Part shown: positions 3,010 to 21,425 of the stretch, in pieces
How the letters are laid out: each line of letters begins with the position of its first letter
Position numbering within the stretch: position 1 is the first letter of the stretch
Virus record (IMG/VR): IMGVR_UViG_3300027784_000050
Coordinates: 1-23,375 of that record
Origin: a virus
Length of the DNA stretch: 23,375 nt
Direction: 5' to 3' (one strand)
Notes under the pieces: model-generated
The model's input: only the letters and a program-made list of their open reading frames with translations
Told to the model about the DNA's origin: nothing
Databases searched by the model: none
Position numbers and translations under genes: made by a program

Positions 3010-3822
3010 ATGTACACAGCTACCGTTAATGTTTCTTTTGCTGTTGATTCAGTCGATGCTGATACCTATTTAGCAATTATGCTGGATGAAGAAAAGAACC
3101 AAAGCGTTTATAAAGTGGAGAAGAAAAACTCTTTTGCTTTAGGAGAAACAGCGTATTTAAAAATATTCAGTAAAGGAGAAGATGCTTTAAATATCTTTTC
3201 CAGCATAGGCAATGTTCAGATTGTGCAGGGTACCTTTTCTTATTCTATTGAAGAAGATATTTCTTTTACGCGAGATAATACAGGCTCTTTATCTTATGTT
3301 CCTATTGGATCCGTGAGCTACACATGGTTTGGTAGGGGCATAATAAATCCTGTTTTTGTAGGAAGAGAGATTCTTTTACAAGAAAATCCAGAAGCTGAAG
3401 ATGCTAAAAAGTTTTTAGGAATTATGCGCTGTACGTATTCGACAGTAGGAAAAAGAGCGACTTTAAATGTTTCGTCCTTGGATGAAGAGGTTGGAGTGCT
3501 TGTTGCTGTTGAGCGTGGTGCTGATTTAGCGTCCGCTACAATTAATTACGAAGCAGACCTATCGAACCCTATTCCTATTTCTTTGCGTGTATCAGATTTC
3601 TGCTCAGACTTGCCTGTTGATGTTGTTTCTGTCTATGTTGATGGTAATTTCAAGGGATGGACAAATATTGAAGGAATATTATACATTGGAGAACTGCGTC
3701 CTGGGACAATGCATACTTTAAAAATGACAAGAGAAGGGTATGTGGACAGTGATCTGGATATTTTATATAACGACAGCTTCACTGTTCCCATACCCCCCAA
3801 GGAAGAGGAAGAGGAGCAGTAA
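3010..3822 (+). CDS. Beta-rich structural protein with PEGA-like C-terminal domain
   Basis: A 270-residue protein with an AAAGGA site a few bases before the ATG. The N-terminal 30 residues resemble the preceding protein. Residues about 190-255 look like a PEGA or carboxypeptidase-regulatory-like beta domain: VDVVSVYVDGNFKGWTN, then GELRPGTMHTLKMTREGY. Such domains mediate surface or polysaccharide contact in other proteins. The C-terminus ends in PPKEEEEEQ. It is the last gene of the plus-strand module, and its TAA (3820-3822) directly abuts the stop codon of the converging minus-strand operon. Probably a decoration or fibre-associated protein; the role is inferred. Confidence 0.7.
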   Translation: MYTATVNVSFAVDSVDADTYLAIMLDEEKNQSVYKVEKKNSFALGETAYLKIFSKGEDALNIFSSIGNVQIVQGTFSYSIEEDISFTRDNTGSLSYVPIGSVSYTWFGRGIINPVFVGREILLQENPEAEDAKKFLGIMRCTYSTVGKRATLNVSSLDEEVGVLVAVERGADLASATINYEADLSNPIPISLRVSDFCSDLPVDVVSVYVDGNFKGWTNIEGILYIGELRPGTMHTLKMTREGYVDSDLDILYNDSFTVPIPPKEEEEEQ

Positions 3823-4023
3823 TCAATACTTTCTTTTCATTTCTTCTTCAGACATCGGCTTCCCTGTCATTAATTTAAGGCCTGTTTCAAGTTGTGCTTT
3901 CATCTTTGGATGGCAAACCAGTTTATGAGCGTGTATTTCAACACTCTTTAGTGGTTTGCCGTCATTATCTTTCATTCGTTCATCTGTTTCAATCGGTAAA
4001 TTAGAAATGTCTTGTTCTTTCAT
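3823..4023 (-). CDS. Small hypothetical protein (66 aa)
   Basis: The last gene of the minus-strand block. Its TGA touches the stop of the plus-strand structural gene. The ATG lies within the end of the upstream cysteine-rich gene (23-base overlap), with AAGGAG about a dozen bases before it. The protein is charged and soluble with one Cys and two His (KSVEIHAHKLVCHPKMKAQ) and a C-terminal EEEMKRKY. No domain is recognised. Confidence 0.55.
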   Translation of the reverse strand: MKEQDISNLPIETDERMKDNDGKPLKSVEIHAHKLVCHPKMKAQLETGLKLMTGKPMSEEEMKRKY

Positions 4024-4270
4024 TGTTTATTTTTCTCCTTCCTTTTTCATTTTCTGAAATATTTCCAGTTCTTTTATCAATAAAATAAAAACCACAACCT
4101 TCATATAATAGATTAGGATGTATAGGGAAAATATGACATTCTTTGGGTTTTGATTCATGTATTGCACAAATACCCCCTGATTTTATTTTTATAAAATGTG
4201 AGCAGTTCTCAGGAATACAGCATATTCCACACTGCTTACATTCTCCTTTTCTTTCAAAATGTTTATACAT
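4001..4270 (-). CDS. YkgJ/UPF0153-like cysteine-cluster metal-binding protein
   Basis: An 89-residue protein from the ATG at 4270 (MYKHFERK). An earlier in-frame ATG at 4309 would give 102 residues but a 47-base overlap with the upstream gene; the chosen start leaves 8. The N-terminus has C11-x2-C14-x2-C17-C18 (CKQCGICC), C23 and later Cys residues in CAIHESKPKECHIFPIHP and GCGFYF. This is the pattern of the YkgJ-type CxxCxxCC family, annotated as zinc- or iron-chelating and possibly Fe-S. Its biochemical role is unknown even in characterised genomes. The neighbours are recombination genes, but nothing shows a shared pathway. Confidence 0.7.
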   Translation of the reverse strand: MYKHFERKGECKQCGICCIPENCSHFIKIKSGGICAIHESKPKECHIFPIHPNLLYEGCGFYFIDKRTGNISENEKGRRKINNERTRHF

Positions 4271-4649
4271 TTTTTCTTTTCTTCTTTCTTTTCTTTTTAT
4301 CAAAAGCATTCAATCCTTCAGTTAATAACCACGCCAATACTTCTCCTACTGTCATTTCATGTTCTTCTGAGAACTCAATCACATCTTTGTATAATTCAAT
4401 TCTTTCTTCTGGATTAAATAAAGAAACGTCAACACATAATAACAAGTTCTTGTAGTGCTTCGTCCTGCACTTTGAGCACATTTCAAGATGATAGGGAGCT
4501 GTTACAAAAGATTCACATTCGGGCCATATGCATCTTTTTTTTCTTCTTGCTGGAGTGCTCAACCGCTCGTACCTTTTCTTGAAATCAAGATCGTACTCTT
4601 TTATTGTGCTCAACGTATCTGTTGTGGGAGAGTCTATTGTGTGCGTCAT
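4263..4649 (-). CDS. Small protein with putative zinc-binding cysteines
   Basis: I chose the ATG at 4649 (MTHTIDSPT, 128 residues) because AGGAGAGGTGG precedes it; an in-frame ATG at 4703 has no comparable site. The start lies 65 bases inside the Rad50-like C-half gene. The middle carries C-x4-C and CxxC (CIWPEC, then MCSKCR), a likely zinc site. After it come a helical region (FNPEERIELYKDVIEFSEEH) and a Lys/Arg-rich tail. Possibly nucleic-acid binding; the family is not recognised. Confidence 0.6.
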   Translation of the reverse strand: MTHTIDSPTTDTLSTIKEYDLDFKKRYERLSTPARRKKRCIWPECESFVTAPYHLEMCSKCRTKHYKNLLLCVDVSLFNPEERIELYKDVIEFSEEHEMTVGEVLAWLLTEGLNAFDKKKRKKKRKNV

Positions 4650-5226
4650 CTGTAACCACCTCTCCTTTCTTGATCTCAAACACTTTGTCAGCGTGTTCGG
4701 CAATCTCAGGAATATGAGTGTTGATGATCAATTGAAGATTAAATTCTTGGGAGAGCAATCTAAGCATTTCGATAGCTCTTGGGATGTGTTTTTTGGAAAG
4801 CATCTTAAACGGCTCATCAAGAACAAAAACAGGTGCACTTTTTTCAATCTTCCAATACGCAAGTCGTGATGCGAAGGACGCAATATCAATTGTTCCTCCG
4901 CCTGCTGAAAATCGAGGTCTCATTAATTTCCCTCCTTTTTCAAAAAAGAGATCGCACTCTGTTTTATTTCTTCTTTCTTCGAATTTAGGAATAAAAGTAT
5001 AGGGATCATCGAAGATAAGATGAAAAGCTTTTGTAACGAGATCAGAGAAATGGTGTTCCACTCTTTGCTGTGTCTTCTTTGCAGCCAATTGATAAATAAT
5101 CCTTGCGTCTTCTGCTGCGTATCTTTCCTCTTTGCACTTTTCGAGTTCTCGTTCTTCTTCTTGAATATCCTTTTCAATTATCTTTTTCTCGGCAATCAAC
5201 ATGTCGATGTCTTTTTTAAACGACAT
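4585..5226 (-). CDS. C-terminal half of a split Rad50/SbcC-type ATPase
   Basis: A 213-residue protein that holds only the C-terminal ATPase lobe of an SMC/Rad50 protein. Residues 1-55 form a short Glu/Lys coiled coil. The ABC signature is SAGGG (107-111), Walker B is VFVLDEP (133-139), and the H-loop histidine is in IINTH (H171). There is no Walker A. The matching Walker A lobe is a separate gene at 6375-7445, with the Mre11-like gene and a coiled-coil gene between. The two lobes would have to meet in trans to form the ATP-binding pockets. With the Mre11-like nuclease the complex would resect or process DNA ends during recombination-dependent replication, as T4 gp46/gp47 do. The start overlaps the previous gene by 11 bases. 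Confidence 0.88.
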   Translation of the reverse strand: MSFKKDIDMLIAEKKIIEKDIQEEERELEKCKEERYAAEDARIIYQLAAKKTQQRVEHHFSDLVTKAFHLIFDDPYTFIPKFEERRNKTECDLFFEKGGKLMRPRFSAGGGTIDIASFASRLAYWKIEKSAPVFVLDEPFKMLSKKHIPRAIEMLRLLSQEFNLQLIINTHIPEIAEHADKVFEIKKGEVVTDDAHNRLSHNRYVEHNKRVRS

Positions 5227-5482
5227 TTGCTTCCCTCTCTTTTTCTATTTCTTCAAGTTTTTCTTCAAGCTCATTAGACAAGGATTCGATGCTGGATTCG
5301 AGTTTCTTGATCTTCACTATGTTCTTATTCAGTAATGCTTTCAGCTTGTCAGAATCGTCTGTCCCGAACTCCTCACGTGCTGTTTGTTTCGTGCTTGCTA
5401 ATTTGCCCTTTGCTTCGCTTAATTCGTTTTGCAATGTTTCCACTCTTTTTTTCAGTTTTTCGAACTTAGACAGTTTTGACAT
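5216..5482 (-). CDS. Coiled-coil protein within the Rad50/Mre11 locus
   Basis: An 88-residue protein that is almost entirely heptad-like: residues 5-35 and 47-85 are Leu/Lys/Glu helices separated by a short EEFGTDDSD linker. There is no zinc hook (no cysteine at all). It overlaps the Mre11-like gene by 17 bases and the Rad50 C-half by 11, so all three are probably translated together. It may supply the returning coiled coil that the split Rad50 lacks, because the C-half has only about 55 coiled residues against roughly 190 in the N-half. That role is inference; a scaffold or regulatory subunit is also possible. Confidence 0.75.
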   Translation of the reverse strand: MSKLSKFEKLKKRVETLQNELSEAKGKLASTKQTAREEFGTDDSDKLKALLNKNIVKIKKLESSIESLSNELEEKLEEIEKEREANVV

Positions 5483-6374
5483 TTAATCCCTCCTCTAAGA
5501 TTTCTTTTGTGCGTTTCTTTGTTCTTCGTTGTTGATCCATCACTATTTTGATGTTTTTCCTGTAATCGAGTTCTGCATCAAAATCTGAATCGAGGCTTTT
5601 TGAGAATTCTTCTCTTCTTCTGCTGTCTGCTTGTTTTTCTCTGATCTCTTCTTCTTTCAGGACTGAACTGGCGGGCTTTATTGGGTAGTTAAAAACCTGT
5701 AGGTCGTGTGTTTTTGTATCGTATATTGCGAATTGTGGTTTGTGTTCTGTTTGGTCAATCTTCATTCTGCAAAGACTTCCGCAATTAACTACTATGCTCT
5801 CTTTGTCTTTGTAAATGAATGCTTTGTGATTATCTCCTGTCACACAGAGATCAAATCCTTTTTTAGTGAGCATCTTTGCCTGAATGTAATCAGTTTGTCC
5901 GGGGAATATTTTCTTTCCATTGATCACCATTTTGTGAGCAACAAGGATGTTAATCCCGTTTTTTGGTTTTGGAAATGTTTTTTGTCCGAAGTGCATTCCG
6001 TATAGATACGTGTTTTTTCCTATTTTCTTTCCGTCTATAGGGATTCGATTAATGAGTCCTGCATTCATGAGTATTTGTAAAGGAACGCCCACAACTTCTA
6101 TATTGTGGAATTTAAGATCGTGTTGTCCAAATAAAGAATAAATAGGAATGTCAACGGACTTCACGAATGAAATTACATCGAAGATAAGTTCTAAGGGATC
6201 TCTTCCATAACTATTGAACCAATCCCCTGGTTGAAGAACAGCGTCACATCCTTTTGTTTTGAACATATCAAACGCATTGTATAATTTATTGAATTGTGTT
6301 TGATAATAATCATCAATCCTGTTAATGGGGGGCGCACTTCTTAAATGCAAATCTCCGAGTATTCCTAATCGCAT
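5466..6374 (-). CDS. Mre11/SbcD-like metallophosphoesterase nuclease (gp47-like)
   Basis: A 302-residue protein with the calcineurin-like phosphoesterase motifs in order: GDLHL (D8, H10), PGDW (D51), GQHD (83-86, Gln replacing the usual Asn of GNHD), VAHK (H147) and TGDNH (180-183). These coordinate the two Mn ions of the nuclease centre. The C-terminal 75 residues are charged and helical and probably bind the Rad50 coiled-coil base. The ATG follows the stop of the Rad50 N-half directly (TAAATG) with GGGAG upstream, so the subunits are co-translated. By analogy with SbcCD and T4 gp46/47 it would be an ATP-regulated dsDNA exonuclease and ssDNA endonuclease. Confidence 0.92.
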   Translation of the reverse strand: MRLGILGDLHLRSAPPINRIDDYYQTQFNKLYNAFDMFKTKGCDAVLQPGDWFNSYGRDPLELIFDVISFVKSVDIPIYSLFGQHDLKFHNIEVVGVPLQILMNAGLINRIPIDGKKIGKNTYLYGMHFGQKTFPKPKNGINILVAHKMVINGKKIFPGQTDYIQAKMLTKKGFDLCVTGDNHKAFIYKDKESIVVNCGSLCRMKIDQTEHKPQFAIYDTKTHDLQVFNYPIKPASSVLKEEEIREKQADSRRREEFSKSLDSDFDAELDYRKNIKIVMDQQRRTKKRTKEILEEGLNVKTV

Positions 6375-7445: not shown

Positions 7446-7827
7446 TTTTGTGCCTCTTTTTTTCCATTTCAAGGTTAGCTTGTCTGTGGTGTTCTATAAC
7501 CTCGTCGTTGTATTCCTTTTCTGTTTGGTATGCTTTTAGCACCTTAAAACAATCGAGACAACCTTTAATCCATCCATCCGTTTCAAAATAAATATTATAG
7601 TGCGGGCACATTTCTTGTTTTTTGTATATATTTATTTGTGCTTGCATATTTTGGATAGTGTTATTCTGTGCTGTTATTTCTTTTTTTAATGTATCAATTT
7701 GTCTTGTATTGTCTTTTAAAGTAGGAGAAATGTTGAACATTTCGTTTTCTTCTATTTTTATCGCCCGTTTCCATAGATTATTAATTTCTTTATTGAGGAG
7801 CTTTTGTTTTTTCTTTAATCCGAACAT
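7438..7827 (-). CDS. Coiled-coil protein with C-terminal zinc-ribbon-like cysteines
   Basis: A 129-residue protein with AAAAGGAG before the ATG. Residues 1-70 are basic, then coiled coil (LKKEITAQNNTIQNMQAQIN). Residues about 73-95 hold CPHY...GCLDCF, a C-x2-H plus CxxC arrangement suited to one zinc ion. The tail is charged. The gene lies between the metallopeptidase and the Rad50 N-half and overlaps the latter by 8 bases. No named family is recognised. Confidence 0.65.
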   Translation of the reverse strand: MFGLKKKQKLLNKEINNLWKRAIKIEENEMFNISPTLKDNTRQIDTLKKEITAQNNTIQNMQAQINIYKKQEMCPHYNIYFETDGWIKGCLDCFKVLKAYQTEKEYNDEVIEHHRQANLEMEKKRHKND

Positions 7828-11639: not shown

Positions 11640-11666
11640 AGGGAGCGGGAAGAACTCCCGCCCCCT
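11640..11666 (-). promoter_or_regulatory. GC-rich intercistronic hairpin
   Basis: In minus-strand RNA an 11-bp stem (AGGGGGCGGGA with TCCCGCTCCCT, one G-U pair) closes a 5-base loop (GTTCT). The opposing strand would carry an A-C mismatch, so the hairpin suits minus-strand transcripts. It fills the gap between the H1-like stop (11680) and the kinase ATG (11619). No U-run follows, so it is not a textbook terminator. It may stabilise or help process mRNA ends, or pause transcription. Confidence 0.7.
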
Positions 11667-11679
11667 TTACTGGAAATGA

Positions 11680-12021
11680 TTACTTCTTGTGGTGAGCAAT
11701 AGAAATAGAGCGAAATTCCTTGAACTGTTTTGCGAGTTCTGAGGTAAGTTTTCGTGCTTTTCGGGCTGCCGAAGCATTCTTTATTGATTTGTCCATTTCT
11801 TCTCTCAAAGAATCCATCAGTTCATACAGACCTTCAATATATTCTTCGGTCAGATTTCCTTCTTCGGTCTCTTTCCCCTTTTTCTCGGCACCTTTTTTAC
11901 CCGGGGCTGCTTTCTTTGCTTTTCCTCCACTGTCGGCAATCGCCTTCTTTCCTCTCCCTGCTCCAGTGGTTTTTGTTTCTTCGTCATTTGCTTTGCCCTT
12001 TTTCTTTACGACTTTTGCCAT
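11680..12021 (-). CDS. Histone H1/Hc1-like basic DNA-binding protein
   Basis: A 113-residue protein from the ATG at 12021 with AAAGGAG upstream; an in-frame ATG at 12099 lies inside the flap exonuclease and is unlikely. Residues 1-55 are Lys/Ala/Gly-rich and disordered (GGKAKKAAPGKKGAEKKGK). Residues about 60-110 are helical (YELMDSLREEMDKSIKN, then ASAARKARKLTSELAKQFKE), recalling the helical half of bacterial Hc1/H1-like proteins with their K/AAARRARK pattern. It may coat or compact phage DNA or assist recombination proteins. The order of tail and helical part is reversed relative to chlamydial Hc1, so homology is tentative. Confidence 0.65.
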   Translation of the reverse strand: MAKVVKKKGKANDEETKTTGAGRGKKAIADSGGKAKKAAPGKKGAEKKGKETEEGNLTEEYIEGLYELMDSLREEMDKSIKNASAARKARKLTSELAKQFKEFRSISIAHHKK

Positions 12022-12025
12022 TGTT

Positions 12026-12877
12026 TTACACTCCTTTAAATAACTGTTTAATTTTTTCCTTTCGTTTTTCTTGTCGAAAGGACTCAAGACCGAATTCACG
12101 ACACACTCTTAAAAATTCAAGCATCCTGAATTCATTGGAAACTTCTTTGAAACTTTTTGTTCCTTCAAACGGAAGGTAAACAAGCTTTCTGTTTCTTTCG
12201 ATCACCTCCTTTCCGTCTTTTATGCTCTGGTACGCTTTTGTCGTTCTTTTCATTTCTCCTTTTAGGAACTGAATCGCTTTCTTTTCTCCAACATTAGGAA
12301 TACCAGGCACCTTATCAGAAGCACACCCCGCAATAGCTTTGACTTCTTTCCATTGTTGGGGTTCGATTCCGTATGCTTTCTTGAACACTTGCTTTGTCAT
12401 TGTTGCCTTCTTTACTGGATTATATATTTTGCAATAATCAAGCAATTGCAACATATCATTATCTGAGGTCACTATATACATTTCTTTGTCTTTATTATCA
12501 AGAATGTATTGTGCTATCGTATCATCTGATTCATATCCTGATTGATAGAATTGATTAATGAAACCAATATTCGGGAGTATTTTTTTTCTGAGTTGATTGA
12601 ACTGAGCAAAAGCTGTTTTCCATTCTTGTTCTTCTTCTGGTGTTTGTGTGTCTCTTCTTTTTATTTTGTAATCAGGAAAAATTTCTCTTCTTCTTGATTT
12701 CTTTGAATCCCAAAAAAACAAAAAATTACTTGATTCGAGTTCTTCTGCGACTGTGATTAATTGGCTGAGAAAGCCGTACATTATTCCTGTCCTTATATTT
12801 CCGTACTGCAACTTTCCTGTAGTTAAGTGCGCCCTGTACGCGAGATAATTTGAATCAATCAGTATTTTTTTCGACAT
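12026..12877 (-). CDS. 5'-3' exonuclease / flap endonuclease (FEN, T4 RNase H / T5 D15 type)
   Basis: A 283-residue protein with the FEN metal-site signatures: ILIDSNYLAYRAH (D8), YESDDTIA (E116, D118, D119), IVTSDNDMLQLL (D139, D141), and the helix-hairpin-helix region GCASDKVPGIPNVGEKKAIQFL (D188). The helical-arch region at about 60-80 is Arg/Lys-rich. It would remove RNA primers and 5' flaps, a job that the polymerase encoded here cannot do because it lacks a 5' nuclease domain. The start overlaps the upstream zinc-ribbon gene by 23 bases. No strong Shine-Dalgarno is seen, so translation may depend on coupling. Confidence 0.92.
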   Translation of the reverse strand: MSKKILIDSNYLAYRAHLTTGKLQYGNIRTGIMYGFLSQLITVAEELESSNFLFFWDSKKSRRREIFPDYKIKRRDTQTPEEEQEWKTAFAQFNQLRKKILPNIGFINQFYQSGYESDDTIAQYILDNKDKEMYIVTSDNDMLQLLDYCKIYNPVKKATMTKQVFKKAYGIEPQQWKEVKAIAGCASDKVPGIPNVGEKKAIQFLKGEMKRTTKAYQSIKDGKEVIERNRKLVYLPFEGTKSFKEVSNEFRMLEFLRVCREFGLESFRQEKRKEKIKQLFKGV

Positions 12878-13043: not shown

Positions 13044-13245
13044 AATCATTTATTGTTTGCACTATCAATTTGCAAGGAATGCTGGATTCAATAGTTATCG
13101 TTTGTTCAAATTTTTCTCTTCCATTTTTGAAAAATCCAGTGAACATTTCCTTATTTATTTCTCCACTATCAAGAAATTCTTGAATAGAGTTGTACTCTTT
13201 TTCGTCACACATATCTGGCTCTATATAACTGTACTTTACCTTCAT
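13042..13245 (-). CDS. Small acidic hypothetical protein (67 aa)
   Basis: A 67-residue protein with AAAAAGGAG before the ATG, overlapping the recA-like stop by 4 bases (ATGA). The sequence (MKVKYSYIEPDMCDEKEYNS, then IQEFLDSGEINKEMFTGFF) is acidic, then beta-rich toward ITIESSIPCKLIVQTIND. No motif is recognised. Its tight coupling to the recombinase gene may mean a shared role, but this is not demonstrable. Confidence 0.65.
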   Translation of the reverse strand: MKVKYSYIEPDMCDEKEYNSIQEFLDSGEINKEMFTGFFKNGREKFEQTITIESSIPCKLIVQTIND

Positions 13246-14366
13246 TCAAATCTCCTTTTTCTTTCGAGTTTTGCATCGTTCTCTATTTCTGTCCAACATT
13301 CACCGACAAGTTTTTGTAGCGCAGTTTCAAGATTATTATTTTCAATGTGCTCTACTAATTTCTGTTTTGTTCCTTTAAAATCAAGCTCAGGAATAACCAG
13401 TGTTTGTTTTTCTTTTTTAAGGTAATCCCATTCAAGAAGGAATTCAATGCTTGCTTGTACATCATCAATACCAAGATCATAAAAAATAGGAAAATGCGCT
13501 TTTCTGTTTTTACCTGTTTGTCTGTTTTTTGTAAGAGCAGCATTCGTATTAACCCCAAGTTGTATTTTCTTTTTACTGCTTCCTTTGCTGAATTCCTTAT
13601 CAATTTTTTTACTGAGAAATAACCAAAGCTCATGCCAAGAATAGAACTTTAAAGCTGCGCCTCCACTACGTGTAACCTTTGATTCAAACATTCCCGCATT
13701 TAATTTTTCACGTGTTTGGGAAATGATGATCAGAATTGAATTCGTTTTCTTGAGTTTAAGACGAATATTTCTGAGAATTTGACTCGCTTGCCTTGCTTTT
13801 GCTGCGCCGTAGTTTCCTGCTGTTTTATTTCCTTTCTTCCACGCCTTTCTGAATTCATCAACTTTCTTTTCATCTTCTTCAGAATCAATTGAATCCCATG
13901 AATCAAGAACATAAATAAAAGGCCTTTCTTCATCAAGTGCATCTAATACATGCATGTGGAAATCTTGAACATTCCCGGAAGGGATTCCTTCTCCATCTTC
14001 ATCGACTGCTGGAGCTTCAAGGCGTTTGAGTAATTTATTTCCGAACAGTTTTTTAACATCAAAATCTTGTCCTTGTTCCGCATCATCATGGATTAATCGG
14101 TACTCATCAAAATCAGGAGTACTGGCAACAGCAGCAAAGCATGTAAAAGCGAGTATTGTTTTTCCGGCTGAACTATCTCCAATGATATTAATAATCCTTC
14201 CTTTTCTAAAACCAGCATAAGGATTATCAGCAAGCGCACAATTCAGTACAGTACAGCCTGTTGGGATAAGATCATCTGGGTACTTCAGTGCCGAAGTTTC
14301 TTTACGAGATCGTTTTTTTGGTTTTGTTTGTTCTGTCTGAGGACGTTTTCTTTCTTTTATTGCCAT
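13242..14366 (-). CDS. recA: RecA/UvsX-type recombinase
   Basis: A 374-residue ATPase that forms filaments on ssDNA and catalyses strand exchange. Walker A is GDSSAGKT (63-70), the catalytic-Glu region is HDDAEQG (E97), Walker B is FIYVLDSWDS (150-159), and the nucleotide sensor is IISQTREKLNAG (Q217), leading into SGGAALKFYSWHE, the counterpart of RecA's GGxALKFYAS. The first 25 residues are a basic extension. It lacks the long C-terminal domain of bacterial RecA, as phage UvsX proteins do. An AGGAG site precedes the ATG, and a GC-rich folded element lies just upstream. It would partner the SSB and UvsY-like proteins. Confidence 0.92.
   Translation of the reverse strand: MAIKERKRPQTEQTKPKKRSRKETSALKYPDDLIPTGCTVLNCALADNPYAGFRKGRIINIIGDSSAGKTILAFTCFAAVASTPDFDEYRLIHDDAEQGQDFDVKKLFGNKLLKRLEAPAVDEDGEGIPSGNVQDFHMHVLDALDEERPFIYVLDSWDSIDSEEDEKKVDEFRKAWKKGNKTAGNYGAAKARQASQILRNIRLKLKKTNSILIIISQTREKLNAGMFESKVTRSGGAALKFYSWHELWLFLSKKIDKEFSKGSSKKKIQLGVNTNAALTKNRQTGKNRKAHFPIFYDLGIDDVQASIEFLLEWDYLKKEKQTLVIPELDFKGTKQKLVEHIENNNLETALQKLVGECWTEIENDAKLERKRRFE
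13244..13260. repeat. 17-bp repeat, copy 2 (ribosome-site leader)
   Basis: An exact second copy of the 17-bp sequence at 13027-13043, here serving as the ribosome-binding leader for the 67-residue gene starting at 13245. It lies within the last codons of the recA-like gene. Confidence 0.85.
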
Positions 14367-14384
14367 TTACTTCTCCTAATTTAA

Positions 14385-14482
14385 TGTGCCGGTGGCCGGG
14401 CTTTGCCCGTATCGAGGTCGTCTATTCCCCTATGATTGATCTACCTGTACGGAGATTGCATAGGAGCGCCACCACCGGCACA
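14385..14482. other. GC-rich multi-stem element between SSB and recA
   Basis: An 11-bp perfect inverted repeat, TGTGCCGGTGG (14385-14395) with CCACCGGCACA (14472-14482), encloses two further stems: CGGGC-TTT-GCCCG (14397-14409), and CCTATG (14429-14434) with CATAGG (14459-14464), itself holding an inner GATCT/AGATT stem. Together they make a three-way-junction fold. The 98 bases are 57 G/C (58%), against a clearly AT-rich surround. There is no start codon with a ribosome site and no long frame, and no U-run follows on either strand. It lies in the leader of the recA gene. It could be a structured RNA, a processing or regulatory element, or a DNA site; it is not a tRNA. Confidence 0.75.
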
Positions 14483-14496
14483 AGCTTATCTTATTC

Positions 14497-15561
14497 TTAT
14501 TCTTCATCATCAGAGTTGACAGCATCACACTCCGCCCATACCTCGCATTCAGCGCAATCATCTGTCATGTCTGCATCAGTTCCGAATTCGTGCCCATGTG
14601 GGCATTCGTCTTTACTTTTTTTCTTTCCCTTGCCTTCTTTTTTCTTTCCTTTATCAGAATCAGATTTTGGTTTTGATTTTCCTGATTTCTTTTTGTCTTC
14701 TTTTTTTGTTTTTTTGCCACTTTTCTTTCCTTTCTTTTTAGAAGATTCTTCTTCCTCTTCTTCCTCTTCTTCTTCCTCTTTCTCTTCCTCATCTTCATCT
14801 TTTTCACGCTTATTTGAAGACTTCTTACTCCGAGGACGTTCTTCTTCCTCATTCTCCTCTTCCTCATCTAACTCAAAGAGAGCTTTCTGAAGCGTTTCAA
14901 AAGATTCAATAACAAGAAGTTCGTCAAGATTATAAACGTCCTCAAGAATATCCTCTTCGTACTCGTCCCTTTCTTCAAACTCGATTTTCCTCGTTTCAAA
15001 GAATTCGTTACTTCCGAGTTTCTTTTTCCTGAACGTTACTTGAAGTGTCTTCCCGCCTTCGAGTTCAGCAAAACCTCCAAGATCATCTTCTCCTTCGTTT
15101 ATCTCTTCATCAAGTGCTTTGCCGAAAAGATGATAGCTGTACTCAAACAATTGTACACCTTTGTCCTGGTCATCGAGATCAATGACATTGTAGAGTTCAC
15201 GTTCCTTTGCTTTCATTTCCCTTGCGAGATCATTGTCTCCTTTATCATCACTGTTATAAAGTTCTTTGACATGATCACAAATCGGACAAGGCTTCTTGAT
15301 TGTCTTTGGACAGAGATGTGCTTTCTTGTTCACATAGTGCACCCATATTGTTCTTTGATACCACTCTTCTCCTTTGGCTGCTTCGGGATGAGTATTTACT
15401 GTCACAACATAGGGAAGAAAATCAAGATTGAATTTTCCTTTTTTTGGTCTAAATCTTTCTGTGTCTTCAGGAAGCTGTAAATAATTACTTCCTCCCCTGT
15501 TCATGTTTCGTTCTGCTTTTTTCTTTGCTTTGTCACGCATCGAGCTTTTCTTTTTCGCCAT
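14497..15561 (-). CDS. gp32-like single-stranded DNA-binding protein
   Basis: A 354-residue protein with AAGGAG upstream. The N-terminal 25 residues are basic and may mediate cooperative binding. Residues about 40-215 form the OB-fold core with a zinc site (HLCPKTIKKPCPICDH: C84, C92, C95 plus a nearby His), as in T4 gp32. Residues about 230-320 are a long low-complexity acidic then Lys/Ser run, the usual acidic partner-binding tail. Unusually, the protein ends with a cysteine cluster (CPHGHEFG, then DDCAECEVWAEC) that may form a second zinc ribbon. It would coat ssDNA at forks and recombination intermediates. It is followed downstream by recA and preceded by the UvsY-like gene. Confidence 0.88.
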   Translation of the reverse strand: MAKKKSSMRDKAKKKAERNMNRGGSNYLQLPEDTERFRPKKGKFNLDFLPYVVTVNTHPEAAKGEEWYQRTIWVHYVNKKAHLCPKTIKKPCPICDHVKELYNSDDKGDNDLAREMKAKERELYNVIDLDDQDKGVQLFEYSYHLFGKALDEEINEGEDDLGGFAELEGGKTLQVTFRKKKLGSNEFFETRKIEFEERDEYEEDILEDVYNLDELLVIESFETLQKALFELDEEEENEEEERPRSKKSSNKREKDEDEEEKEEEEEEEEEEESSKKKGKKSGKKTKKEDKKKSGKSKPKSDSDKGKKKEGKGKKKSKDECPHGHEFGTDADMTDDCAECEVWAECDAVNSDDEE

Positions 15562-18713: not shown

Positions 18714-20135
18714 TTAATGAATGTATTCCATTTCTGTTTTCATCTTACTCCAATTACCATTTAATTCAGAACAATCAGCTTCGAGTTCAAGCGGGGTAAT
18801 AATAAAATCCCAAAAGTCCTTAATCTCGTGGCACATGACCTGTTGAAGAAGCTCATAGAAATCCTTTTTCTCATTCTTCGGGCAATCACCAATCACAGAG
18901 TCATGGATTTGAAAAACGATTCTTGTCTTCATCTTGTACTTTTTAATTAATTCAACAAGACGAATAGCACTCCACAGAAGACAATGGAATGAAACAGATT
19001 GGATGGGGTAATTAACAGCATCATTCTTGCCCATTATTCCTTGAAAAGTAACACCACTTAATGATGTTAGATACCCGTGTTTTGTGTACCACTTATACGT
19101 TTTTTCTTTCCAATCTCTGTAAACAGTGAATCGTTTATTCCACATATTGTCTTCGATCTTTTTCACATGATTCAGGAATTGATCAAATGTTCTGATTTTG
19201 TGCTTTATCAGATTTTCACCTACTGTTATTCCTGAATCGAGAACAAGTCCGTCTTTTTTCTTTATTTTCTTGCCTTTGAGATTCGCCCAGTTCCATAGAG
19301 ATACGGCATTATTTCCATAATAATCTCCATAGAACTGAGGAAATGTGAATCCGTTCTTTGTTCCTTTTCTTAATGTTTTTTCACCAGCGCATTTTGAATT
19401 GTAATGATTAAGGCAGAATATTAGTTGCATAAAGTCAGAATGCATATCTGCTGTTTTTGGATTTCTCAAGTATTCAAGTAATGTGGGATCATGATTATTC
19501 CAACTTGCTCCTTTTATCTCCACGCCTCCGTAGTCCGCCTCTATCAGATAATTACCATCTCGTGGAATAAATGCTCTGCGAACGATCTCATTGCTTTCTT
19601 CATCCCGCACGGGGATATTTTGAACGTTAGGAGAATTTGCCGAAGAACGAAAAGTACGGGCTGTGTGCAGATTTAGAAAAGGGTATACAAAACCATTATA
19701 CGTTTCAGTGATGATATTACTTATGTACGTGTCTTTTAATTTTTCAAGTTTCCTCTTTCTTAAAAGATCATCTGTAAAAGGAAGTCCCATAGCTTCAAGA
19801 GCTTCTTTATCTGTTGACGGAGTTCGTTCTCCGTTCGGTCCTACTGTGTCTGTGAATTTCAGAGGTTCGTATTCGAATTCATTGAACAAAATATCAATCA
19901 TTTGTTTGGAACTTTTAAGATTGAACTTGCTCTTGTACTTTTTCTTCCACTCTTTGATTTCTTTATGTTTATAAAGCTTCTCTTCTTGTACTTGGATTTC
20001 TTTTGTCAGATTATCATGCGCTTGATGGCAGTAATCTATGTCTATTCTGACTCCTGTTTGTTGGATTTCTGAAAACGCGATCATTCCTTTATGAAGCAGA
20101 TCGTACCCTTCAGGATTATAGGGGACTACTTGCAT
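18714..20135 (-). CDS. DNA polymerase family A, polymerase domain only
   Basis: A 473-residue protein with the three family A catalytic motifs: motif A LIEADYGGVEIKGAS (D201, E206; the usual DYSQIELR reads DYGGVEIK), motif B LRKGTKNGFTFPQFYG (R256, K260, Y269), and motif C VFQIHDSVIGD (H411, D412; Ser for the usual Glu). Thumb residues and TARTFRSSANSPNVQNIP (158-175), typical of the template-primer cleft, are present. It has no exonuclease domain; that is in the gene directly upstream, whose stop overlaps this ribosome site (TAAATG). The two proteins probably act together as the replicative polymerase. Confidence 0.93.
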   Translation of the reverse strand: MQVVPYNPEGYDLLHKGMIAFSEIQQTGVRIDIDYCHQAHDNLTKEIQVQEEKLYKHKEIKEWKKKYKSKFNLKSSKQMIDILFNEFEYEPLKFTDTVGPNGERTPSTDKEALEAMGLPFTDDLLRKRKLEKLKDTYISNIITETYNGFVYPFLNLHTARTFRSSANSPNVQNIPVRDEESNEIVRRAFIPRDGNYLIEADYGGVEIKGASWNNHDPTLLEYLRNPKTADMHSDFMQLIFCLNHYNSKCAGEKTLRKGTKNGFTFPQFYGDYYGNNAVSLWNWANLKGKKIKKKDGLVLDSGITVGENLIKHKIRTFDQFLNHVKKIEDNMWNKRFTVYRDWKEKTYKWYTKHGYLTSLSGVTFQGIMGKNDAVNYPIQSVSFHCLLWSAIRLVELIKKYKMKTRIVFQIHDSVIGDCPKNEKKDFYELLQQVMCHEIKDFWDFIITPLELEADCSELNGNWSKMKTEMEYIH

Positions 20136-21425
20136 TTATTCTTCCCTTACTTTTTTGTATTGTGGACAGATATCGTATCCAGTGCATTCGGAAAAAAGAT
20201 GAGAGTAATCAATTCCTATTATATCCATCATGATTAATCCCTGTCTGAATTCTGTCATTGAATCCATCCCATTGTATATAAGAAGATCATATATATCTAT
20301 TTCATCAATATTGTTGAGATCATTTCCTGATTCTGCTGTTTTTAGAAACTTGTCGATGTGCGTGTTATATGGTTCAATTCCCAAAGAAACATAGTTCTGA
20401 AAATCAAGACTCGTGATGCCTTTTCTGTTATCTATGAAATGCATTCCAATCATCGTATCAAAAAATAAACCATTAAGAGCGGCGTTCAGTTTTACATTAC
20501 TCCAGTCTTTTTCGTATTTAATATTCGCACAGATTTTATAAATGTCTTTCGATGATAAATAACGCTTAAATAACGATAAGAATTTCTGATCATCGAACAT
20601 AGGAAAAGCAACAGCTTCATAAGGGCCTGTGCTGATTGAACACGAAGTAATTCTTTGTTCTTTTCTTTGGGGCTTTAATCCCGTTCCTTCGTAATCGAAT
20701 GCAGTCAATATATTCTTCTGTTTCAACAAGTCTCTGAGATAGCTCACAGCGTCTTTTGCGTGTTTTATAATGCGAATGTACTTCGTTTCATCTTCGAACG
20801 CAGGGAGCGAGACATCTCGCATCTGTAGAGAGCATTTTAAATCATCTCTGAATATCTTTTTTGCGACTTCGGGGGTTTTGTCATTTCTGACATACGAAGG
20901 ATTAAATACAGGACATACCCACGCATTGAATTCACGATCAGGAATAATGAATCCTCGCCATTTATTAACTGATTCAATATCTTTTTTAAACTTATGATTA
21001 ATGAGGGCTTTTAATGCTGTGTCTCCAACAGGGATGATTATATGGGGCTTATATTTTTGTATTGTTTTTTTAAGATTAGGATAACACGCATTTGTAATTG
21101 TGTTTGGAATCTTTTTTGGATTAGAAGGACGACACAACAAAGCGCCTGTTCTTGTCGCTTCTTCAATATCGTGCCCCAAGTTCTTGAGTACTTTTCTGTA
21201 ATACTGCCCATTTCTTGACGAGAAGAAATCTTCGTTCTTATCATCTTGTGCTTCAGGAAATCCTGCTACGTGCAGAATACGCACATTGTGATTGCCCTTT
21301 GGTTCTATTTTAGGGTTTTTGCTGTTCTGGTCGAACCCACATTTTTTGCACTGAGCTAATGTGGATCCGTTTCTCTTAATTTTTTTTGATTGTACTTGAG
21401 AAGCTTTAAAAAATCCTTTTCCCAC
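20136..21425 (-). CDS. UDG-like Fe-S domain fused to DEDD 3'-5' exonuclease
   Basis: A 429-residue protein with a GTG start at 21425 and AGGAG upstream. Residues about 20-195 resemble family 4/5 uracil-DNA glycosylases: CKKC (C26, C29), ALLCRP (C98) and NACYPNL (C114) match the four Fe-S ligands, and IIPVGDTALKAL matches the core strand. Typical catalytic residues are altered: GFPEAQ in place of GEAPG, and FNPSY (N175) in place of HPS. Residues about 238-390 are a proofreading exonuclease: FDYEGTG (D244, E246), NIKYEKDW (D307) and YNGMD (Y384, D388). It would proofread for the adjacent polymerase. Some phage polymerases, such as that of SPO1, carry a UDG-like domain in one chain; here the chain is split before the polymerase domain. 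Confidence 0.82.
   Translation of the reverse strand: MGKGFFKASQVQSKKIKRNGSTLAQCKKCGFDQNSKNPKIEPKGNHNVRILHVAGFPEAQDDKNEDFFSSRNGQYYRKVLKNLGHDIEEATRTGALLCRPSNPKKIPNTITNACYPNLKKTIQKYKPHIIIPVGDTALKALINHKFKKDIESVNKWRGFIIPDREFNAWVCPVFNPSYVRNDKTPEVAKKIFRDDLKCSLQMRDVSLPAFEDETKYIRIIKHAKDAVSYLRDLLKQKNILTAFDYEGTGLKPQRKEQRITSCSISTGPYEAVAFPMFDDQKFLSLFKRYLSSKDIYKICANIKYEKDWSNVKLNAALNGLFFDTMIGMHFIDNRKGITSLDFQNYVSLGIEPYNTHIDKFLKTAESGNDLNNIDEIDIYDLLIYNGMDSMTEFRQGLIMMDIIGIDYSHLFSECTGYDICPQYKKVREE

Follow-up and report, generated by a model that had tools for sequence, protein, structure and literature searches.

A structured RNA between ssb and recA of a viral contig, in a slot where related phages carry other, partly tRNA-like RNAs

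Introduction

Some described RNAs are shaped like tRNAs and depart from the standard cloverleaf, among them the tRNA-Other of Bacillus cereus and the allo-tRNAs, which keep the anticodon arm. Phage T4 makes, along with its tRNAs, the stable RNAs C and D, whose role is unknown. A review of non-canonical tRNAs does not contain the words phage, virus or pseudoknot (PMC7609411). Here, we describe a GC-rich, strongly folded element in the replication operon of a viral contig, and compare it with the RNAs that occupy the same position in related phages and with a wider group of tRNA-Leu-like viral RNAs in which a pseudoknot stands in place of the anticodon arm.

Results

The window, by which we mean the whole stretch of DNA analysed, is a viral contig of 23,375 nt (IMG/VR record IMGVR_UViG_3300027784_000050). 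From 3.8 kb on, the contig carries its genes on the minus strand, in an operon for replication and recombination that comprises a split DNA polymerase, a clamp loader, ssb, recA/UvsX, an exonuclease, a dCTP deaminase, an SbcCD-like pair, and endonuclease VII. The DNA polymerase A consists of two adjacent ORFs (18714-21425, minus strand), as it does in one relative, L031. The element fills the gap from the ssb stop (14497) to the recA start (14366): it begins 14 nt after the former, and 18 nt, with the ribosome site among them, separate its end from the recA start codon. Since both flanking genes lie on the minus strand, this is the transcribed strand, and the RNA is an intercistronic piece between ssb and recA (Table 1).

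Table 1 Features of the element, its flanking genes, and examples of the wider group
Feature	Position	Strand	Evidence
Whole structured RNA element, 98 nt, ssb-recA intercistronic region	14385..14482	-	Fold energy and z
P1 closing stem, 5' strand UGUGCCGGUGG	14472..14482	-	Sequence and fold
P1 closing stem, 3' strand CCACCGGCACA	14385..14395	-	Sequence and fold
UGGCG right after the acceptor-like stem; same as U8-G12 of the L031 tRNA-like RNA	14467..14471	-	
Hairpin P2/S1, 5' strand CUCCUAUG	14459..14466	-	Fold
Hairpin P2/S1, 3' strand CAUAGGGG	14427..14434	-	Fold
Possible pseudoknot helix S2, 5' strand UCCGUA, inside the P2 loop	14448..14453	-	Pseudoknot score
Possible pseudoknot helix S2, 3' strand UACGGG; shares bases with P3 and so competes with it	14406..14411	-	
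Hairpin P3, CGGGC-AAA-GCCCG, at the T-arm place, without T-loop	14397..14409	-	Fold
ssb, gp32-like single-strand DNA-binding protein, upstream of the element	14497..15561	-	phrog_1192, E 1.5e-14
recA/UvsX-like recombinase, downstream of the element	13242..14366	-	Pfam RecA 6e-18; phrog_97 UvsX-like 2e-34
Example members of the wider group (L054-L172)	L091 4102-4209; L120 771-881; L133; L057		

The original prediction, made from the sequence alone, had delimited the element at 14385-14482 and described a perfect 11-bp terminal inverted repeat (14385-14395 / 14472-14482), and both are correct by sequence. The high GC content that it reported holds as well (58.2% vs 36.3% for the contig), as do the two inner hairpins, which are present in the fold. 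On the minus strand, the element folds at -46.5 kcal/mol (z = -5.0, none of 200 shuffles as good; z = -4.1 for the plus strand), and it is the lowest-energy 98-nt stretch of that strand, the runner-up reaching -32.9 kcal/mol. The RNA is predicted to form a three-way junction of a closing stem, P1, and two hairpins, P2 and P3. P1 is a perfect 11-bp stem that a U-G pair extends to 12, P2 comprises 8 bp plus an inner part, and in the predicted fold the two stack as one long helix. Repeats of this length are ordinary when composition is ignored (2 observed vs 2.5 expected), and GC-rich ones (perfect 11 bp, at least 8/11 GC, spacer 40-230) number one in the contig, against a mean of 0.0 in 60 first-order Markov sequences. 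No U-run follows P1, as had been stated; UUAAAUUAGGAG comes after it on the minus strand, and an intrinsic terminator is thus not seen. The claim that the element lies in no reading frame was inaccurate, as the ORF scan lists a plus-strand ORF with a GTG start (14288-14890). We judged this ORF spurious; it is antisense to both flanking genes.

A covariance search against Rfam, which the original prediction had proposed as a check, was run on the element and returned no family at E up to 10 except two chance matches. The tRNA model RF00005 had no match at E ≤ 10 over 14300-14560 and none in the whole record, and ARAGORN found no tRNA, and no standard tRNA even with a lowered threshold and introns allowed. 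The perfect 11-bp closing stem provides the 7 bp of a tRNA acceptor. The element has no T-arm with a UUCRA loop, a 5-bp stem with an AAA loop standing there instead, its fold has no anticodon arm, and the window copy has no D-loop, T-loop, or GG. Riboswitches and self-cleaving ribozymes gave no Rfam match, nor were hammerhead or HDV-type cores seen by eye; a known self-cleaving RNA is not supported. The contig contains no second copy of the element, a DNA similarity search against GenBank phages yielded no real match to it, and visual inspection of its plus-strand flanks (TTTAA / AGCTT) revealed no target-site duplication. No comparable gap is seen in the annotated gene order of Edwardsiella phage ZHS or Vibrio phage CC6. 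The terminal-stem pattern GTGCCGGTGG..CCACCGGCAC had 28 matches in IMG/VR; judged from their sequences, these are two recurrent codon-like sequence sets and single GC-rich matches, and we dismissed them as apparent coding coincidences.

The relatives are few and all metagenomic, and the slot after ssb was inspected throughout in five of them (L031, L032, L033, L043, and L051), whose ssb is 62-69% identical to that of the window. As far as their contigs reach, they keep the gene order clamp loader - p184 - ssb - recA - exonuclease. In all five, the GC 80-mer that ranks first or second in the fetched sequence lies at or next to the slot, and the slot is occupied by a GC-rich structured RNA, never the same one; the window's own element sequence is absent from them. 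The original prediction had counted such absence, or unpaired changes, in relatives as refuting, a rule that does not fit as worded where each slot contains a different structured RNA. The more distant relatives L048-L050 (ssb 42-27%) are without a slot element.

Three of the five slots hold tRNA-Leu-like content. The L031 occupant, which lies after ssb with the same gene order and spacing as in the window, is a 109-nt RNA with acceptor, D-arm, and T-arm of the tRNA-Leu type (RF00005 E 1.3e-7). That of L032 measures about 89 nt (5077-5165) and carries a CCG-GAAA-CGG hairpin at the anticodon-arm place. In L033, an occupant of about 227 nt has the same acceptor and T-arm with an insertion in the D-loop, Rfam finds only a tRNA fragment (E 8.4), and a 69-aa ORF intervenes before recA. 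The original statement that there are no tRNA features therefore stands for the window copy, by ARAGORN and Rfam, but not for the slot. The L043 occupant, about 190 nt with a closing stem UGCGUCUCCUU/AAGGAGACGCA, is followed by an 85-aa ORF before recA and has neither an Rfam match nor a convincing tRNA core. A permuted tmRNA in the ssb slot of L043 (2990-3190) was reported by ARAGORN only at a lowered threshold, its tag was not identified, and we set it aside as probably a chance match. The L051 occupant ends at the contig edge; it shows a tRNA-Leu-like D-arm by eye and no Rfam match. The folds of the L031 and L033 occupants exceed those of shuffled sequences by a modest margin only (z -1.7 and -0.6, respectively).

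Other features of these contigs were also observed. L031 has a second structured gap element before its DNA polymerase gene (2504-2647, z -3.3), with a closing stem UGUGGGGAG/CUCCCCACA that nearly equals the L031 stem after ssb. In L043, recA contains an intein that carries a LAGLIDADG domain (3516-5891), and in L051 the clamp-loader gene is interrupted by about 1.4 kb (335-1710, intein or intron).

The content of the slot changes even between near-identical phages. L032 and L033 are 100% identical over the 3254 nt before the element and 99.9% identical over the 1942 nt after it, and the element with its 3' flank is replaced between them (L033 3241-3698). In L034, which is 99.95% identical to L032 and whose contig ends inside the element (4200-4222), the D-loop already differs, hinting at population-level variation. 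Such turnover among near-identical phages may point to host-phage conflict.

The L031 RNA led to a wider group, which we searched for with a fixed pattern, the tRNA-Leu D-arm and T-arm 46-76 nt apart; this spacing is 36 in E. coli leuT. At least 120 viral stretches match; among the matches listed there are 124 matches and at least 108 distinct viral RNAs, and the size and host range of the group are to be read as lower bounds. Among these listed matches, the acceptor pairs at 7/7 bp in 98 of the 108 and the T-stem at 5/5 bp in 100, and 85 have an A at position 73. The group is defined here by the acceptor, the D-arm GGAAUUGGUAGACRC, and the T-arm GGUUCRAAUCC, and its members carry, at the anticodon-arm place, a pseudoknot-forming insert of 43-73 nt (about 40-75).

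An anticodon arm in the insert does not rise above chance (5.46 vs 5.30 ± 0.22 in mononucleotide shuffles). With mononucleotide shuffles and with scores picked after viewing examples, so that exact significance should be treated cautiously, a helix S2 whose 3' strand ends at most 4 nt from the T-stem scores 11.54 vs 8.85 ± 0.28 in shuffles, strong S2 cases number 30 in 85 non-redundant inserts vs 4.2 ± 2.0 expected, a crossing helix S1, given S2, scores 12.5 vs 10.15 ± 0.37 (the maximum of 100 shuffles being 11.27), and, inside the S2 loop, nested hairpins exceed shuffles only slightly (9.00 vs 8.45 ± 0.23). As modelled from these helices, the layout is that of an H-type pseudoknot. Compensatory changes are found between L120 and L161 in both S1 (A-U to G-C) and S2 (C-G to A-U), between L057 and L133 in S1, and in S2 for the pairs L060/L091 and L081/L105. 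The L031 RNA fits the same layout, with S2 formed by GAGUC/GACUC and S1, by eye, by GUCACAU/AUGUGUGAC. Taken with the compensatory changes, the pseudoknot signal indicates that these RNAs are maintained and are not debris.

One member is present in a cultured phage: positions 19550-19657 of Bacteroides phage BS-TP2 (PQ571275), in an unannotated gap before NinG, are 100% identical to L180 2051-2158. A similar tRNA-like sequence, unannotated, whose T-loop reads UGCAAAU and whose insert is long, occurs in Bacillus phage vB_BauS_KLEB27-1 (OM654379, about 63.85 kb; L173 2497-2605). Rfam scores the tested members as tRNA at about 40 bits, and ARAGORN misses most of those checked. Among ten neighbouring proteins checked, the named functions belong mostly to DNA metabolism (helicase, thymidylate synthase, exonuclease); in both L081 (3555-4445) and L105 (426-1331), the tRNA-like element lies 5-7 nt after a phrog_29758 gene of unknown function. 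In three loci (L056, L057, and L064), the anticodon-less RNA is accompanied by a tmRNA gene, and the tmRNA match of L056 has a group I intron match next to it. A host-genome control with the tRNA-Leu pattern lacked normal-length matches too, so it gives no contrast. We found no description of such anticodon-less phage RNAs in the open-licence literature.

How does the window copy relate to these RNAs? Besides its position, it shares with L031 ACAU past the 3' strand and an acceptor-like stem, 8 bp or longer, that is directly followed by UGGCG; both motifs are short, and UGGCG has a chance of 0.0013 at one fixed place. The D-arm and T-arm of the wider group are not in the window copy, where only the stem and UGGCG are present. 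A pseudoknot built from P2 and UCCGUA/UACGGG scores 32, against 25.2 ± 3.1 in shuffles (3% as good), and a plain two-hairpin model, which competes with it for CGGG, scores equally. As the window copy has no D-loop or T-loop, we count it neither among the members of the group nor among tRNAs; it is best read as a positional homologue and probably a degenerate relative.

Discussion

Our preferred reading, put forward tentatively and at somewhat less than even confidence, is that the element is an intercistronic structured RNA in a slot of fast-turning-over tRNA-like RNAs and has diverged from a tRNA-Leu-like ancestor. We infer that the ancestral occupant of the slot was a tRNA-Leu-like RNA with a pseudoknot for an anticodon arm, as is still found in L031. 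The window copy would have diverged strongly from it, keeping the long acceptor-like stem, UGGCG, and the stacked inner arms, and losing the D-loop and T-loop. The minus-strand ssb-recA transcript would include the element, given presumed co-transcription of the two genes, and a stable RNA would be cut from this message, in the tRNA-like relatives putatively by host RNase P and RNase Z. The idea of a processed RNA, one of several raised in the original prediction, is in this respect supported, the element being structured and probably processed. Excision would separate the ssb message from the recA message, and the freed RNA may act as a decoy or tRNA mimic. A decoy or counter-defence role would drive sequence change; in the open-licence literature, the nearest precedent is phage tRNAs that evade tRNA-targeting defences (e.g., PMC11555353).

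A distinctly possible alternative, to which we nonetheless give only about a third of our confidence, is a generic intercistronic stabiliser: any strong fold directly after ssb would shield the 3' end of an abundant mRNA and make ssb independent of recA, perhaps with cutting by RNase III or RNase E, and its sequence would be free to change because stability alone matters. It would account for position and stability being conserved and sequence not, and for P1 and P2 stacking into a long helix. In its favour, another gene of the operon (window 11680-12099) likewise has a strong hairpin after it (11640-11666, minus strand, z -3.2), and its homologue in L043 has a different one, of 17 bp (7460-7595, z -4.4). 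However, a simple hairpin would be enough for this purpose, the paired acceptor, D-arm, and T-arm around the pseudoknot of L031 exceed the needs of stability, and the L031 and L033 folds beat shuffles only modestly.

The other explanations are less probable. A site acting at the DNA level, such as a replication origin, a recombination hot spot, or a small mobile inverted-repeat element, is unlikely: the perfect terminal inverted repeat, the setting in a replication and recombination operon, and the rapid replacement of content in relatives would suit it, but the element is single copy, lacks a target-site duplication by eye, and has relatives that keep an RNA-type pairing of acceptor and T-arm. 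We regard as very unlikely a cis-regulatory recA leader, whether a riboswitch, a thermometer, or an autoregulatory site. The original prediction had named the recA leader as the setting, and the recA start codon does follow 18 nt downstream, behind the ribosome site; this description is incomplete, as the element lies 14 nt after the ssb stop and stays at the ssb 3' end even where a gene is inserted before recA, in L033 and L043. With this extra gene in two relatives, and with a slot that follows ssb and varies in content between near-identical phages, a recA-specific cis-regulator is not supported, and neither a conserved aptamer-like core nor an Rfam match speaks for one. Least likely of all is an ordinary decayed tRNA gene or a functionless fold, with which the lack of a tRNA model match would agree; a gene in decay would be expected to lose its stem, but P1 has no mismatch, no other fold of its strand is as strong, and each close relative examined has an occupant in the slot.

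A bolder version of our preferred reading, which we consider doubtful, is that the window element belongs, in hyper-diverged form, to a widespread, undescribed group of phage RNAs that are swapped rapidly between near-identical phages. If so, its anticodon and variable arms would have been replaced by a hypervariable pseudoknot and it would not decode. Leucyl-tRNA synthetase does not read the anticodon; under this reading, the RNAs may be end-processed and charged (A73). The rapid swapping is as expected of decoys or counter-defence RNAs, and in the ssb-recA slot such RNAs are seen replaced in phages otherwise 99.9% identical. More generally, a group of conserved phage RNAs may be going unnoticed, since oversized, anticodon-less phage "tRNAs" either escape ARAGORN or would be classed by Rfam as tRNA of low score. 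As BS-TP2 is cultured, direct tests of charging, processing, and role are feasible.

Among known RNAs, tmRNA (RF00023) resembles the wider group in its tRNA-like ends, in its pseudoknots, and in a helix that abuts the T-arm. The group differs in having no tag frame, inserts of 40-75 nt, and an intact tRNA-Leu D-stem, and L056, L057, and L064 each have a tmRNA gene as well. Another close counterpart is tRNA-Leu: the L031 and L032 RNAs score as tRNA with RF00005 (33.8 and 31 bits, respectively), with acceptor, D-arm, and T-arm, whereas the wider group carries a pseudoknot in place of the anticodon arm. The window element shares the acceptor-like stem followed by UGGCG, and differs from tRNA-Leu in having no D-loop, T-loop, or model match. 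Non-canonical tRNAs, including allo-tRNAs, are likewise tRNA-shaped and depart from the standard cloverleaf (PMC7609411).
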